From positions 1 through 51,251 of IMG/VR virus record IMGVR_UViG_3300032069_000017: a stretch of DNA of 51,251 bases. One strand, given 5' to 3'. This DNA comes from a virus. Both the position numbers and the translations under genes were made by a program. A model generated the notes under the pieces. That model was not told the origin of the DNA. It saw nothing but the letters and a program-made list of their open reading frames with translations, and ran no database searches. This document shows positions 2,597-47,620 of this stretch, in pieces; within the stretch, counting starts at the first letter, position 1, and every line of letters begins with the position of its first letter.

Positions 2597-4381
2597 ATGG
2601 TAACATACATGGCTCTTCCGCAAGCGCAATTAACTATTGGGGGAAACGTGTATAACGTTTTAGTTTCTGCTGATGTGACTAGAAACGAAAACGGTTTTGA
2701 TGTAGCCACAATAATCGTTAATGATGAGTTAAGCCAAAATTATCCAACAAACATTGACGCGGGCAAAACTATACTGCTCGAAGTTAAAGACTCTTCAGAT
2801 GGTTCATGGACTACGCTTTTTAATGGTTTAATCCGTTTTTGTCTTCCAAACATTTCAGAGCAAGGCGAATTTTTAACGTTGAAATGTGACGGCACAGGAT
2901 ATGGACTAACAGAAACAAGTTGTAATGAAGAGTATGGAGTGGAAAGTCGCAATACCAGTTTAGACACAATCACGGAGATTATAACGGATGCAAACAAGGG
3001 AATTGGCCCAAAATATGTGAATGGCATCTTAGGCTCTGGAAGCAGTGGCTACGCTTATGATTATTCAAAAGTCGAAGCCATAGCGGGATCAATAAACTTT
3101 GTTTGCAGCCCATACCAACCATGTGACAAATTGATTAATGATTTATGCGATTTAGTCACGGCAATTAGACAAGATGTAGCATACCATCCTGATCATCAAG
3201 GCCCACACTGGATTGTTGACACAAGCGGCAATTTCAGAATGAAACTGATTGGGGTTACTCAAGCGGGGTGGACTCTCTATTATGGTGACAGTCAAGCAAA
3301 TGCTACATTGACACAAGGCATAGATTTTGACTCTTTCAATTTTGAACATCAAGATTCAGAAGCAAACTACATTTTGTATTATGGCACTTTACGCAAGCCC
3401 GCACGTGATTATTGGACTGAAGGACAGTTTGGTATTTGGGGAAAAACTGCTGCAATGGGTTTAAGTGATGAAGCCACAATAAAGAAGGTAGGCACTTCTA
3501 GTCTTAAATGTCTCAGCACTTTAGCGGATGCACAAGCCTATTATCCTTCAGGCAAAAATGCGGGTTGGGACTTCACTAAAATTGGTTCAGCAAAAAATCC
3601 GCCCACATTCAACTTTTACAGTTATGTAGGCGCACTTACTGGTGGGCAAACTGCACGTATTGGATTATACACGGATGGAAGCAACAACGTTCACATTCAT
3701 GTGCAAAATGACACTATAGGCGAGTGGTATCCTCATTCTCTAATTGTTGGGCCATATTATAAACCGCAAGAATGGCACATGGAAGGCACAATAGACTGGG
3801 CAAACATTAATTATATTCTGATATGGCATGCGTTAGCTCTTGATACGACAACGACTTACTGGGATGACATGCACTTTGAAGGGTTAATTTGCCGAGCAGC
3901 CAAAGACTCCACACTTATCGCAGCTGACAAGTTGAAACTTAAAACTATTGTGGATCAAGTGGGCAAAGATGACGTTATGACATTGGCTGACACTGGAACT
4001 ATGGCGCGTCTTTGCGCTTCAGAACTATTTTCGGCAAGAACAAAACCATTAATCGGACAAATTACAACACCCATGATTAAAGAATTGCTTCCGGGGCAAT
4101 ATCTTCACATCCACGCTAAAACTAACAGCACCCCTTCATTTAACATAAATATGGATATGCGCGTAACCAGTTTAAGGCATCATATTGACATTAAAGGATT
4201 AACAACCTCAAGCAATCTTACGAATGACTATATGAATAGTCGCGCACGTGCATCATACAAAAACTATAACACGGTAGCCAGTGCAGTAAGACCTGACTAT
4301 CAAGACCGAAGTGCCACTAGCATAAAAGCGGGAGTCGTAGATATTGATGTGCCGATTTTAGAGGTTGATTATCCAAGTTGA
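2597..4381 (+). CDS. Baseplate hub-like tail protein with one jelly-roll domain (type A)
   Basis: A 594-residue protein. The ATG at 2597 follows an AGGGG ribosome site. An upstream in-frame GTG at 2504 would overlap the previous gene by 92 nt and is less likely. Residues 1-220 look like a hub β-domain (FNGLI, then LKCDGTGYGLTE), as in gpD/gp27-type baseplate proteins. About 270-440 is an inserted lectin-like β-sandwich starting YWTEGQFGIWGK and ending with TYWDDMHFEGL, a pattern common in carbohydrate-binding modules. The C-terminus returns to hub-like sequence (LPGQYLHIHA). The homologue at 12821 shares these anchors but has two such insertions. Confidence 0.6.
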   Translation: MVTYMALPQAQLTIGGNVYNVLVSADVTRNENGFDVATIIVNDELSQNYPTNIDAGKTILLEVKDSSDGSWTTLFNGLIRFCLPNISEQGEFLTLKCDGTGYGLTETSCNEEYGVESRNTSLDTITEIITDANKGIGPKYVNGILGSGSSGYAYDYSKVEAIAGSINFVCSPYQPCDKLINDLCDLVTAIRQDVAYHPDHQGPHWIVDTSGNFRMKLIGVTQAGWTLYYGDSQANATLTQGIDFDSFNFEHQDSEANYILYYGTLRKPARDYWTEGQFGIWGKTAAMGLSDEATIKKVGTSSLKCLSTLADAQAYYPSGKNAGWDFTKIGSAKNPPTFNFYSYVGALTGGQTARIGLYTDGSNNVHIHVQNDTIGEWYPHSLIVGPYYKPQEWHMEGTIDWANINYILIWHALALDTTTTYWDDMHFEGLICRAAKDSTLIAADKLKLKTIVDQVGKDDVMTLADTGTMARLCASELFSARTKPLIGQITTPMIKELLPGQYLHIHAKTNSTPSFNINMDMRVTSLRHHIDIKGLTTSSNLTNDYMNSRARASYKNYNTVASAVRPDYQDRSATSIKAGVVDIDVPILEVDYPS

Positions 4382-5203: not shown

Positions 5204-5349
5204 GCTCTAAACATAATTGTTATGTCCATATATGCTTTTCTACATAACGAACCAATACCCATGAAGAAACACCATGCCCTTTCGACCACCATACGCTTTT
5301 CCATAGAAAACTCGAAAAAGCCCATGCCCAAAACCGAAATTAACATCAT
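5200..5349 (-). CDS. Short hypothetical protein
   Basis: A 49-residue, Met- and Phe-rich peptide with two weakly hydrophobic segments. It starts at a double ATG and ends in an ATGA overlap with the downstream gene. Its own start overlaps the stop of an even shorter frame (5346-5414, 22 residues, ATGA again), so three tiny frames may be translated in tandem. No family recognised. The overlap pattern is the main support. Confidence 0.4.
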   Translation of the reverse strand: MMLISVLGMGFFEFSMEKRMVVERAWCFFMGIGSLCRKAYMDITIMFRA

Positions 5350-5452
5350 TTTAGAGCTCTAAAGAGCTCTACAAGGCTTCCGCAAATCAGCCTTCTTTCA
5401 CGAAAACAAGCCATAATCGAGTAGAAAAACTCACTCCATAAATGACTGGGGC

Positions 5453-5466
5453 CTCATATAAAAACC
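5453..5466 (-). promoter_or_regulatory. Candidate TATA promoter for the 5414-4964 genes
   Basis: On the minus strand the sequence reads GGGTTTTTATATGAGG, an archaeal-type TATA box about 40 nt before the first short frame. The gap 5415-5550 otherwise holds nothing I can identify. Confidence 0.45.
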
Positions 5467-5550
5467 CTCGAAAATGAACCTTTTAAGGCAAAAGCTTCAC
5501 CAAAACGGTATGTTTAATTATACATCCGATATGTGTTCGATATGTAAATC

Positions 5551-6311: not shown

Positions 6312-6625
6312 GGAATAATTCCCCTATACTTCAGCCATGCCCTACACAACGCATCAAAATCTTCCACAGCAAAATGCGATTCCACACGATACCAGTCCCG
6401 GCTTTCAGCTTGCCGAAACACGGCCTTAGGTTCTTTAGGTTGAAAAACAATGAGATGCGCCTCTTCACCATATCGATAACTATTAGTCAAATGATCCACA
6501 CAAACCGGGCCATTATACTCAATTTTTAAACTATGGTCAACGGAACAACTGACAGTGATAGGCACTCCACGAAACACATGCTCGATATGTGCGCCTTTAT
6601 AGATTGTAGCCTCAACCATGCCCAT
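6308..6625 (-). CDS. Hypothetical protein
   Basis: A 105-residue protein of mixed composition with β-like first half (HVFRGVPITVSCSVDHSLKI) and an aromatic-rich end (WYRVESHFAVEDFDALCRAWLKYRG). Starts at 6625 or 6619 are equally possible. Its stop overlaps the methyltransferase ATG. It could be an accessory subunit for the methyltransferase, but only adjacency suggests this. Confidence 0.6.
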   Translation of the reverse strand: MGMVEATIYKGAHIEHVFRGVPITVSCSVDHSLKIEYNGPVCVDHLTNSYRYGEEAHLIVFQPKEPKAVFRQAESRDWYRVESHFAVEDFDALCRAWLKYRGIIP

Positions 6626-6731
6626 TCACCTTTTTCGCGTTGCAACTCCTACACCGGGTTGAAGGCTTACCATGCCCCCGGGGCAATGGCACACCACAAT
6701 CTTCGCAAACCCTAAAAGTCTGATGCGCCAT
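6612..6731 (-). CDS. Zinc-ribbon mini-protein
   Basis: A 39-residue frame beginning MAHQTFRVCEDCG with a second pair CRSC, i.e. Cx2C-x15-Cx2C, flanked by basic residues. It starts one base after the upstream gene's stop and overlaps the next start. Conserved spacing of four Cys and tight packing support coding. Likely nucleic-acid binding. Confidence 0.6.
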   Translation of the reverse strand: MAHQTFRVCEDCGVPLPRGHGKPSTRCRSCNAKKVNGHG

Positions 6732-6732
6732 T

Positions 6733-7191
<459 letters not shown>

Positions 7192-10501: not shown

Positions 10502-11062
10502 ATGGATGTTGCTCTTGCTGTCTATAATTGCTTAGTTAATGGTTGGAATAAACCACAGATTATTGATATAGCTGATTTTTTATCAGATGATTATACTGAC
10601 CCAGACTTCTTTGTTAATGATGTCTATGAACAACCTGAAAGTGGTTTACCAACTGTAACATGGAGACTAGATGAATTTGACCCTAAAAGCCCTAGCATAC
10701 AAGTGTTAATAGAAAGTTTCCCTATACGTAGTGTGTGGGTTGCTAGAGGAATATACCGGGTAGAACATAAGGTTAGAATCACTATATACCAGAAGCTTGT
10801 CCATTATAATGCTGATAGAATATCAGAGTATAAAACAAACTGGTTTAAGGTTAAGACAGAGATTGATAGAATCTTAGCTATAAATAAGTTTAGTATAACC
10901 AATATTTCTAACCTTAACTTGACTGGTGGCTGGGATGATAAGAATACTATTGCTGTTGGTAGAGGAATAAAGACTACTAAAGAACCTATAGTATGGAAGA
11001 GTGAACAGATTATTACAACGGTATATTATACTAATAAGATATTAGAAGAGGAAGTATCTTAA
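10502..11062 (+). CDS. Putative tail completion/terminator protein (type B)
   Basis: A 186-residue protein with an acidic N-terminus (DFLSDDYTDPDFFVNDVYEQ) and a C-terminal β/α segment with VRITIYQKL, then KVKTEIDRIL. Pattern and position match the C-terminal half of the protein at 383-1240. It is the first AT-rich gene after the spike. A tail terminator is the best guess. Confidence 0.55.
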   Translation: MDVALAVYNCLVNGWNKPQIIDIADFLSDDYTDPDFFVNDVYEQPESGLPTVTWRLDEFDPKSPSIQVLIESFPIRSVWVARGIYRVEHKVRITIYQKLVHYNADRISEYKTNWFKVKTEIDRILAINKFSITNISNLNLTGGWDDKNTIAVGRGIKTTKEPIVWKSEQIITTVYYTNKILEEEVS

Positions 11063-19983: not shown

Positions 19984-20583
19984 ATAGAAAAGTATATAGA
20001 TAAGACTGATAGGCTTACTAAACTAAAAGAACAAGTAGAACAGTGTACTAAATGTAGAAACTTAGTAGAAAGTAGAAAACTATATCCTTATGGGAAGCCA
20101 ACATTTGGTTATGGTAATCCTAATAGTAAGATAATACTTATAGGAGAAGCACCCGGACATCTAGGTTGTGGAAGAACCGGTAAACCGTTTATGGGTGATA
20201 GAAGTGGTGATATATACCTTAGAGCCTTAAGAGAATCTAGATTAGAATATGACCAAGTTTATACTACTAATGTTGTTAAGTGCTGTCCATTAGCTAATAG
20301 AACACCTACTAAGGAAGAAATAGAAAACTGTAGAATTTGGCTAAAGAAGGAAATAGAAATAGTTAATCCCAGAATAATAGTTTGTCTTGGAAGAACTGCG
20401 GCTAACTGGTTTGGTATAAGGGATAACCTTAATAAAGCACTAGTTACTAATTATAAATATGGAGAACAGCTTGTTAAGGTTTTATACCATCCCGCGTATC
20501 CATTGCGTTGTGGAAGCCAAGCTGTTCTCCAGTGGCTATCAATATTTAGATTAACTATAAAGGAGATTAATAAAATTGTCTAA
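19984..20583 (+). CDS. Family 4-type uracil-DNA glycosylase, apparent ATA start
   Basis: A 199-residue enzyme that removes uracil from DNA. Visible motifs: CTKC (residues 21-24), the active-site motif GEAPG (about 54-58), CC in VKCCP plus a later C in IENCRIWL for the 4Fe-4S cluster, and HPAYPLR near 168. The first in-frame ATG is at 20191, which would delete the catalytic motif and two cluster Cys. The frame opens right after the preceding stop at ATA 19984, preceded by AAGGGAT. The start is therefore probably ATA, giving IEKYIDKTDRL. It may protect AT-rich viral DNA from deaminated cytosine. Confidence 0.85.
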   Translation: MEKYIDKTDRLTKLKEQVEQCTKCRNLVESRKLYPYGKPTFGYGNPNSKIILIGEAPGHLGCGRTGKPFMGDRSGDIYLRALRESRLEYDQVYTTNVVKCCPLANRTPTKEEIENCRIWLKKEIEIVNPRIIVCLGRTAANWFGIRDNLNKALVTNYKYGEQLVKVLYHPAYPLRCGSQAVLQWLSIFRLTIKEINKIV

Positions 20584-23791: not shown

Positions 23792-24200
23792 CAAAGAAGT
23801 ATTAGAAGCAATTAAGTGGAACAAAATAGTAATAGAACCATTTAATAGAGAACGGCTTGGACCATGTAGTTATGATATTACTACCAGAATAGTAAAAGAA
23901 GATGAAGAAAGCTTATACTTAGTAAGTGAAGAAACTATTACTATAGGTAAAGATATAGTAGGTATAGGAATACTAAGAAGCAATGCAAGCAAAAGAGTTA
24001 GTCCAGTAATAGCTAGTTATAGTCAGTTAATAGACCCCGGTTATAGTGGTAAACTAATATTTAGAATATTAAAACTGAAGTTTCCTATTGGTGATATAGC
24101 TAATCTATTTCAGATAGTATTTTTTAGATTAAGGAATAAAGTAGAGGTTGGATACAACGAACGTAGTAAAAGTACTGCGATGGGTAGACAAGGCTTTTAA
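23781..24200 (+). CDS. dCTP deaminase/dUTPase-fold protein
   Basis: A 139-residue protein with a TTG start (MLSDKEVLEAIK). Family landmarks: PFNRERLGPCSYDI, LRSNASKR (the RSxxxR of the active site) and IDPGYSGKL. In typical dCTP deaminases IDPGxxG is followed by a strand with the catalytic Glu (VLEF); here the strand reads LIFRI, so that Glu seems absent by eye. It is also shorter than the usual 170-200 residues. It may be a dUTPase-like or regulatory member. Confidence 0.7.
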   Translation: MLSDKEVLEAIKWNKIVIEPFNRERLGPCSYDITTRIVKEDEESLYLVSEETITIGKDIVGIGILRSNASKRVSPVIASYSQLIDPGYSGKLIFRILKLKFPIGDIANLFQIVFFRLRNKVEVGYNERSKSTAMGRQGF

Positions 24201-24366
24201 AGATAAAGCTTTACGAAAGACGATAGTCTATAGAACATTAGGAATAGCTACTGGGTTCCTTATAAGCTATGGTATATTTAGAACTGTTGAAGTTTGTTTA
24301 GAATTGACAATAGCTATAGAACTTGCTCATTCTGTATTATATTATATAATGGAGAAATTCTACTAA
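24148..24366 (+). CDS. DUF2061-like membrane protein
   Basis: A 72-residue protein with the DUF2061 layout: basic start (ALRKTIVYRTLGIATGFLISYGIF), a second helix, and an end with AHSVLYYIMEKFY, where family members have a (Y)YxHERxW-like terminus. Two membrane helices. It starts at TTG 24148 inside the previous gene, a 53-nt overlap. Function in the family is unknown. Confidence 0.6.
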   Translation: MDTTNVVKVLRWVDKAFKDKALRKTIVYRTLGIATGFLISYGIFRTVEVCLELTIAIELAHSVLYYIMEKFY

Positions 24367-24369
24367 TGG

Positions 24370-24400
24370 AAAGGTTTATTAATAAGATTAAGTATAGTAT
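24370..24400 (+). promoter_or_regulatory. Promoter of the predicted RNA gene
   Basis: These 31 bases match the methyltransferase promoter at 25050-25080 in 26 positions, including AAAGGTTTATTAA (BRE/TATA) and GTATAGTAT at the expected start-site distance. Here there is no fitting protein start downstream; a GC-rich folded segment follows. Confidence 0.65.
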
Positions 24401-24535
24401 TATAATGCCGGTCCTAAGTCTAAAGGACTGGTACTTTATACGTCCTGAGAAACTGGGCGTCCACTCAACGTACCATGGCTCAGGCGGTGGCAGAAGAGCT
24501 TCGACGGGAGCTAGAACGAGCCTGCTACCGTATTT
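24400..24535 (+). ncRNA. Predicted structured RNA
   Basis: A GC-rich segment in very AT-rich surroundings with several strong stems: 24407-24414 with 24425-24432 (8 bp with GU pairs), 24440-24445 with 24455-24460 (6 bp), 24485-24493 with 24522-24530 (9 bp, one GU), which encloses 24497-24502 with 24507-24512 (6 bp, loop GACG). An alternative GGCTC/GAGCC pairing (24477-24481 with 24518-24522) could form a switch or pseudoknot. Frames through it have unusual composition and no proper start. It is not a tRNA and matches no RNA class I can recall. Confidence 0.55.
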
Positions 24536-24572
24536 ATATTCTATAAGTAATAAATATAAAGGAAGTGAAATC

Positions 24573-24821
24573 ATGAAACCACAAAAAAGGCTTGAATTAA
24601 CAGAACAAGAATTTGAGGAACTTGTGAATGAATTGTCAGAAAGAATCAAAGACGTGATATACATGAACCTTAAAGGTAGGCTTCGGAATGAAGTAAAGAA
24701 GATATTTAAAGCAGAACTTGAAACTAATAGTTCAATAGAACTCACATGGGCACTGCACCTTGTTTTTGGGGATATAGAACAAATAGTTGGAAGATTAAGA
24801 AGGAAGGAAGCGAAACCGTGA
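24573..24821 (+). CDS. Hypothetical helical protein
   Basis: An 82-residue, charged helical protein from ATG 24573 after GGAAGTG. Its codon use is less AT-rich than neighbours and closer to the type A genes, so it may have come in with the RNA segment. Its stop overlaps the next GTG start. No family recognised. Confidence 0.6.
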   Translation: MKPQKRLELTEQEFEELVNELSERIKDVIYMNLKGRLRNEVKKIFKAELETNSSIELTWALHLVFGDIEQIVGRLRRKEAKP

Positions 24822-25016: not shown

Positions 25017-25080
25017 GAACACGTGTTCGTTAAAATGAACAGTATAAAGAAAGGTTTATTAAGAATAAAAGGTATAGTAT
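25017..25080 (+). promoter_or_regulatory. Operator and promoter of the cytosine methyltransferase gene
   Basis: GAACACGTGTTC (25017-25028) is a perfect 12-bp palindrome. A half-site TGAACA begins at 25036, so the GAAC elements are 20 bp apart. The same pair with the same 20-bp spacing lies before polB (31716-31747). The TATA-like TTTATTAA at 25055-25062 follows, then GTATAGTAT, 15 nt before the start codon. Confidence 0.65.
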
Positions 25081-25094
25081 AAAGGTAGAAGTTT

Positions 25095-26054
25095 ATGAAA
25101 GCCTATGTTTTTTATTCTACATACCATCATTGGGTTCAATCTTTATTAGATGCTAATTATACAATTATAGGATGTTATCAACCAGATGTCACTATTGACC
25201 CAGATAAGTATATGGAACAAGATAGGCTTTCTAATTTAGTATTACAAATGAATTTTCCTAAGATACAAGTTATGGGACCAATGTGTATAAAGGAGCATTT
25301 TAATGATATAGACCTTATAGTAGGTAGTCCACCGTGTGTAGGTTTTAGTAAAGCTAGTCCGGTTAGTAGGTTAGACCATCCTTGGAATAAGCATACTCTT
25401 AATTTTGCTAAGTGGATAGCTAAGATTCTACCTGAGCATTTTCTAATGGAAATGGTACCAGAACTGCTTACTAAGGGTGAGGAATTATGGGTTAGATATA
25501 TAGAAACTATTAATACTGATTACCTATTTACTTATAAGATTATGGATGCTGCTGATTATGGTGCGGCTCAAAGACGTAAACGGTTACTTGTATGGGGTTG
25601 TAGAAGGGACCAAGAATGGATTGACCCGCTAGAAACTTTGCCTAAGATTCCAGCTAAGACTATAGGGGAGGTAATACCAGAAAATGTATCTAGATATTGG
25701 GATATGTATAAACCAGATACTAAATATATAATGCCTGTAGAAAGGATAGATGGTAAACTTAGAAAGGGACCATTTAGTTTATTAGCTACTCCAGAAAGGA
25801 GGAATAAAAGAACTTTAACTAGGAATGATGTATCGTTCACTTTAGTTAAGTTTTCTACTCATAATATGTTATACCAAAGAGAAGAAAGGAGACGGTTCTT
25901 TAGTATAGAAGAACTTAAACTTATAATGGGATTTCCAATAGACTATAAGTTTCCTAATAAGAATGTTCAAGAAGTATCTAGATGTATAGCAAGTGGGATT
26001 GATATTAGGTTTGCTACCCATTTACTAAAACATATTAAGGGCGTGTTAGAATGA
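25095..26054 (+). CDS. C5-cytosine DNA methyltransferase, divergent N-terminus
   Basis: A 319-residue protein. The catalytic motif IV is GSPPCVGFSKASPV at about residues 77-90. Motif VI is the variant FLMEMVPEL (normally ENV), motif VIII is AAQRRKRLLVWG, and the end has EELKLIMGFP, as in Dcm/HhaI enzymes. The first 60 residues (KAYVFYSTYHHWVQSLL) lack the usual FxGxG SAM-binding motif I. It could modify viral DNA or bind SAM in an unusual way. Target sequence cannot be read. Confidence 0.75.
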   Translation: MKAYVFYSTYHHWVQSLLDANYTIIGCYQPDVTIDPDKYMEQDRLSNLVLQMNFPKIQVMGPMCIKEHFNDIDLIVGSPPCVGFSKASPVSRLDHPWNKHTLNFAKWIAKILPEHFLMEMVPELLTKGEELWVRYIETINTDYLFTYKIMDAADYGAAQRRKRLLVWGCRRDQEWIDPLETLPKIPAKTIGEVIPENVSRYWDMYKPDTKYIMPVERIDGKLRKGPFSLLATPERRNKRTLTRNDVSFTLVKFSTHNMLYQREERRRFFSIEELKLIMGFPIDYKFPNKNVQEVSRCIASGIDIRFATHLLKHIKGVLE

Positions 26055-47122: not shown

Positions 47123-47620
47123 ATGAGTTTTGGAGAAAAAGCAAAAGGATGCCTAGTTTGGAAGGTTGAAAAGTTCAAGGCTAAAGACAGCAAGGAAATC
47201 TTAGAGAAAAATGTTAAGCCGTACGAAACGGTTGAAGGTGAACATCACTGCCTGTTGAATGAGGGAATCACCAACTTGATAAACCTCATTTGTGGGCTTG
47301 GCAGTCCAACAGCGTGGAACAATGCTAACGCTAGGGTAGGCGTGGGCAACGATGGGACGGCTCCAGCGGCTACTCAAACGGGACTTCTGGGAGCTTCAAA
47401 ATTGTACAAGGGTATGAATGCTGGTTATCCGCAGATTAGTGGTCAGCAAAGCATTTTCCAAGCGGACTTTGTGAGTGGAGAAGCGGAGTGGGCTTGGCTT
47501 GAAGAAGCAATAGATAATGGTGCTACTGCGGCAATTGACTTGTGCAGGCAGAACACGAGTTTAGGCACGAAACCTGCTGGGCAAACTTGGCGTTTGACGG
47601 GCACTATAACGTGGAGTTAA
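47123..47620 (+). CDS. Virion surface or fibre-like protein in a type A island
   Basis: A 165-residue protein after GGAGG. LLNEGITNLINLICGL, then ARVGVGNDGTAPAATQTGL and ITWS at the end. This resembles the protein at 49657 (VNAGLWNRLLCKLGL, LGIGTGTVAASPTDIGLG), so the two are probably paralogues. Family members in phages are tail or fibre subunits. Codon use is type A. Confidence 0.55.
   Translation: MSFGEKAKGCLVWKVEKFKAKDSKEILEKNVKPYETVEGEHHCLLNEGITNLINLICGLGSPTAWNNANARVGVGNDGTAPAATQTGLLGASKLYKGMNAGYPQISGQQSIFQADFVSGEAEWAWLEEAIDNGATAAIDLCRQNTSLGTKPAGQTWRLTGTITWS

Follow-up and report, generated by a model that had tools for sequence, protein, structure and literature searches.

Phage T4 makes two small stable RNAs, C and D, which are structured, have an unclear role and are encoded in the tRNA cluster of this bacterial phage, and the packaging RNA of phi29 has a length of about 120-174 nucleotides. 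Capture of host RNA genes by viruses occurs as well. Racr are RNA anti-CRISPRs of phages, each of them mimicking one CRISPR repeat (PMC10651486), and GOLLD and ROOL are large structured RNAs from bacterial settings, phages being among the hosts of such RNAs (PMC12286853). Our literature searches found few structured RNAs of archaeal viruses and none with the anatomy of the RNA considered here, which lies in a 51-kb IMG/VR virus record (51,251 nucleotides, analysed as a whole and called the window). This RNA resembles Racr in being small, virus-encoded, non-coding and apparently accessory, and differs from it in that it comprises three hairpin domains without similarity to repeats in Rfam, instead of mimicking a single repeat. 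GOLLD and ROOL are also structured, non-coding and known from phages among other places; they are far larger and bacterial, whereas the window RNA has about 140 nucleotides and belongs to a virus of a probable archaeal host. The T4 RNAs C and D share with it that they are small, stable and structured, and we know of no relation in sequence between them. The reading that we prefer, with a probability of roughly 0.6, is that of a stand-alone RNA gene of about 140 nucleotides, with its own promoter and three hairpins, the product of which would act in trans and serve as accessory cargo in counter-defence or in taking over the host.

The window encodes a large terminase, a capsid protein, a family B DNA polymerase (PolB), a thymidylate synthase (ThyA), a dCTP deaminase-like protein and a cytosine methyltransferase (Dcm), and the best full-length matches of its polymerase are halovirus polymerases. 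Its replication genes and TATA-type promoters point most likely to a head-tail virus with an archaeal host. Twelve relatives were drawn by a search with the window ThyA; searches with ThyA, Dcm, PolB and a fourth protein led to the same few relatives and to no additional RNA-bearing genome, and the Dcm sequence used alone as query retrieved 0 relatives. Two of these relatives are equally close to the window, with 69% PolB identity each, namely L003 (contig IMGVR_UViG_3300035660_000081), which carries a homologue of the RNA, and L018, in which the RNA was not found. This distribution bears on the packaging role that the preliminary description had suggested and for which we see no support. An RNA partnering the terminase like that of phi29 would also be viral and of comparable size; however, the large terminase of the window is of the T4-like type (PF03237), another type than that of phi29 and one not known to us to require an RNA, the RNA was not found in the near relative, and its loops AAGUCUAA, CCACUCA and GACG lack, by eye, a conserved complementarity for ring formation. 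We consider a packaging RNA highly improbable.

With 56% GC, the stretch 24406-24530 (125 bases) stands out from its surroundings of about 33%; past base 11,000, no more than 6 of 40,126 positions attain as much, and among those listed, the positions near this peak lie at the RNA locus or at about 47,250-47,295 and nowhere else. The comparison with shuffled sequence that had been proposed as a check bears out an unusual fold: the plus strand of 24390-24545 reaches -54 kcal/mol, whereas dinucleotide shuffles average -40.7 +/- 4.1 (z -3.2, 1/200). The minus strand of the same stretch is ordinary (z -1.0). The three nested or adjacent stems noted earlier are recovered as a 5' hairpin (H1), a second stem-loop (P2 with P2a) and a long 3' hairpin with an inner hairpin (P3 with P3a), the coordinates of which are listed in Table 1. 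In the P2 region GAAAC and ACUCAA are unpaired and conserved, and P3 contains the inner hairpin P3a (AGCUUC-GACG-GGAGCU) and a bulged, conserved AAYGAGC. Elsewhere in the window, a non-coding gap at 5204-5473 also folds well on the minus strand (z -4.7, 40 shuffles).

Table 1. Features of the candidate RNA gene and its surroundings in the window.
Feature	Position	Strand	Basis or remark
DUF2061-like membrane protein, 72 aa (upstream neighbour)	24148..24366	+	just under Pfam cut-off
BRE/TATA element GAAAGGTTTATTAA of RNA promoter	24369..24382	+	exact 14-mer elsewhere in window only at 25049
Initiator-like TATAGTAT	24393..24400	+	24 nt past start of BRE/TATA element
Predicted structured non-coding RNA, ~140 nt	24400..24540	+	fold z -3.2, L003 homologue, covariation
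Hairpin H1, 8-bp stem, 8-nt loop AAGUCUAA	24408..24431	+	8/8 pairs kept in L003
Stem P2, CCUGAG/CUCAGG	24444..24484	+	independent folds of window and L003 RNAs
Inner helix P2a, within P2	24454-24459/24469-24475	+	independent folds of window and L003 RNAs
3' hairpin P3, CGGUGGCAG/CUGCUACCG	24485..24530	+	independent folds of window and L003 RNAs
U-rich tail UAUUUAUAUUC, probable 3' end	24531..24541	+	UAUUUA after P3 in window and L003
82-aa ORF (downstream neighbour)	24573..24821	+	no homology to gene after RNA in L003
Methyltransferase promoter, same class as RNA promoter	25049..25080	+	sequence match to 24369-24400
C5 cytosine DNA methyltransferase (Dcm) gene	25095..26054	+	Pfam PF00145, E 6e-30

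The homologue in L003 extends over 6545-6745, 6646-6742 being matched by blastn (74% over 98 nt, E 4e-10). As in the window, it lies downstream of genes for dCTP deaminase-like and DUF2061-like proteins and upstream of both a related ORF rich in cysteine and the methyltransferase gene. Its 5' hairpin likewise has an 8-bp stem and an 8-nt loop, AAGGCCAA, and an extra hairpin is present between H1 and P2. Single-sequence folds of the two RNAs recover H1, P2/P2a and P3/P3a independently. In the comparison of window and L003, the full set of 34 helix pairs survives without a broken pair, and in 12 pairs both sides have changed; these compensatory changes, which the preliminary description had proposed as a test, strongly support its claim of a functional RNA gene. 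The core without H1 accounts for 26 common pairs, none of them broken, with double compensatory changes in 7 and single ones in 2, and H1 for 8 kept pairs with 5 double changes and 1 single change. On an alignment built from sequence only, the consensus energy of the core for the two sequences is -34.9 kcal/mol, compared with -11.4 +/- 3.0 for column shuffles (0/2000), and with H1, which was aligned by hand, it is -58.4 compared with -15.5 +/- 3.4 (0/1000). Control alignment blocks of window and L003 (80 in number) have a mean z of -0.4, and one of them, at 20455, reaches z -7.7, a value comparable to that of the RNA. In this block (20455-20558), GGAGAACAGCTT ... AAGCTGTTCTCC form a long inverted repeat inside a uracil-DNA glycosylase-like ORF and hence a structured element in coding sequence; its predicted fold keeps 31 pairs relative to L003, including 5 in which both bases differ. 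As the fold stays while the letters change between window and L003, the RNA, judged from this one pairwise comparison of two sequences, is real and its fold is maintained by selection.

The search for homologues covered IMG/VR and one GTDB pattern scan, possibly apart from records very close to the window genome. Model-filtered pattern scans of IMG/VR viral contigs returned the L003 contig only, the RNA model matched none of the other relatives, and phage records gave no more than chance-level matches at the nucleotide level. The two matches of the GTDB scan lack the 3' hairpin and were judged to be due to chance.

High GC content and an open reading frame might also be expected of imported protein-coding sequence, and in the window ORF 24294-24821 (or its shorter version, 24366-24821) indeed stays open through the RNA stretch. 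The preliminary description had named a conserved protein frame across 24400-24535 as an argument against an RNA gene; we looked for one, and no frame is conserved between window and L003, the alignment containing a 1-nt indel and the L003 frames being interrupted by stops. Substitutions in the ungapped block are distributed 7:3:6 over the codon positions and are not concentrated in one, and the helix pairs are compensated. An origin as coding sequence is already contradicted by the L003 frames and is, in our opinion, of almost negligible probability.

The similarity between 24370-24400 and 25050-25080, upstream of the RNA and of the methyltransferase gene, amounts to 26/31 bases exactly as first claimed (within-genome BLAST E = 1.9e-4), and the next best 31-mer of the window reaches 22 matches. 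A module that combines GAAA-G-TTTAwwAA with TATAGTAT at a distance of 24 nt precedes both genes in the window and, in altered form, in L003, where GAAAGACTTATAAA at position 6510 is the counterpart of the BRE/TATA element and TATAGTAT with the same spacing again stands before both RNA and Dcm. We take these elements to resemble an archaeal BRE, TATA box and initiator, and RNA transcription is predicted to start at about 24400. The idea that the promoter had been copied from, or to, the methyltransferase gene does not hold up well against L003, where the module stands before both genes and the two copies are alike at only 17/32 bases (counted by eye). These agree mainly in the core elements, which a shared promoter class explains more readily than a single recent copying would.

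The genes that follow the RNA are of interest with regard to a cis-acting role, i.e., a structured leader of the riboswitch or attenuator type in the 5' UTR of the next gene and on one mRNA with it. In the window the next ORF begins 43 nt past P3 and is preceded by the ribosome-binding-like AAGGAAG, in L003 the distance is about 25 nt, and there is no strong or recognised terminator in between, so that co-transcription is possible; we infer termination at the U-rich tail. Against a leader speaks that the downstream genes of window and L003 are unrelated, that the downstream gene of L003 stands in L018 (52% identical) without the RNA and that Rfam gives no riboswitch match; the conserved association with a controlled gene that such a leader requires was not found. 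A leader therefore appears improbable to us. The same two observations, the differing downstream gene and the L018 copy without RNA, suggest that the stand-alone RNA acts in trans. For antisense targets of at least 12 nt in its own genome, the search found none in the window and one 12-mer in L003.

The DUF2061-like neighbour, which has homologues in L003, L018 and L020, marks the slot in which the RNA resides. In L018 this slot, between homologues of the two ORFs flanking the RNA in L003, holds a 171-aa ORF, HNH-like as read by eye, behind GAAAGGTTTAAATA, a promoter similar to that of the RNA. From this arrangement the RNA looks like an exchangeable accessory gene.

A second slot is found in more distant relatives between a protein of about 500 aa without a Pfam family and a trypsin-like protease. 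It holds unrelated structured RNAs in L012, L005 and L007, which are homologous to each other, in L020 and L013 and perhaps in L014, and small ORFs in L010 and L008. L012 and L010 differ by the presence and absence of an RNA unit of about 178 nt between flanks that are about 95-97.5% identical, a clean case that concerns another RNA than that of the window and viruses more distant from it. Neither blastn nor the RNA model relates the window RNA to any of the structured RNAs seen in the relatives of the second-slot kind, and this slot thus offers an analogy of setting, not of common descent. The RNA of L012 (9360-9515; 4617-4770 in L005 and 7864-8018 in L007) lies upstream of the trypsin-like gene and is branched, with a closing stem followed by CTATTTTTT; 2 of its 50 predicted pairs are compensated and 1 is broken in L007. 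That of L020 (16800-17000, corresponding to 10058-10258 in L013) is GC-rich (z -3.5), carries the promoter element GAAAGGTTTATTAA and has a closing stem GTGTCTC/GGGACAC followed by CTATTTTT. In L014, 9290-9450 is non-coding, follows the gene for the protein of about 500 aa as do the RNAs of L012 and L020 and folds well (z -2.8). Two further candidate RNA genes with a similar promoter element occur in L020, at 4104-4330, which folds well (z -3.8), and at 619-840, with unremarkable folded stretches. A GC-rich stretch behind GAAAGGTTTATAAG in L026 (16265-16510, corresponding to 6518-6770 in L024) is 98% identical in the two contigs and is crossed by an ORF, and its single-sequence fold is no better than shuffles (z -0.6).

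Among known families, a diverged viral relative of a host RNA (RNase P, SRP, tRNA, a box C/D or H/ACA guide or a self-cleaving ribozyme) might be considered because viruses are generally known to capture such genes. Yet the window RNA matches none of the 4227 families of Rfam 15 at the gathering score, permissive thresholds give nothing credible for either homologue, a tRNA search found none, and neither a K-turn nor an ACA box is seen by eye in the RNA. We regard a host-derived RNA as very unlikely. More attention is due to an inhibitor RNA directed against a specific host defence in the manner of Racr, for example as a decoy for a CRISPR or RNA-binding effector, which would be a narrower form of our preferred explanation. 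The RNA seems to be accessory and exchangeable, it has its promoter class in common with a DNA methyltransferase, a typical anti-restriction gene, and phage RNAs with such a role exist (PMC10651486). However, neither the window RNA nor that of L003 matches the CRISPR-DR families of Rfam, the set of repeats compared, and three hairpins exceed a solitary repeat unit. In this specific form the proposal is conceivable and rather unlikely.

Our preferred explanation, a stand-alone RNA gene, can be put as a sequence of steps. Host TBP and TFB would be recruited to the BRE/TATA and initiator elements, and an RNA of about 140 nt would be transcribed from about 24400 and end at about 24540 in the U-rich stretch past P3. 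The transcript would fold into the three domains H1, P2/P2a and P3/P3a and act in trans, with the conserved loops AAGNCNAA, GAAAC, ACUCAA and AAYGAGC as probable contact sites for a protein or RNA of the host (or of the virus), and it might be expressed jointly with the methyltransferase as accessory cargo. Counter-defence or host takeover through binding of a host protein or RNA is the role that we favour, tentatively, and a packaging RNA, a cis-acting leader and a diverged host RNA rank lower as less likely rivals. In a wider sense, it is possible, if speculative, that head-tail viruses of uncultured archaea possess slots in which small protein genes and unrelated structured RNAs are swapped behind similar promoters, such RNAs, that of the window among them, forming an undescribed class of counter-defence or takeover factors. 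The two homologues, the fold model and the conserved loops provide concrete targets for tests of binding partners. A folded RNA in a variable slot, together with the exchange of RNAs and small proteins among relatives, suggests that archaeal viruses may use RNA for jobs that are otherwise done by small accessory proteins.
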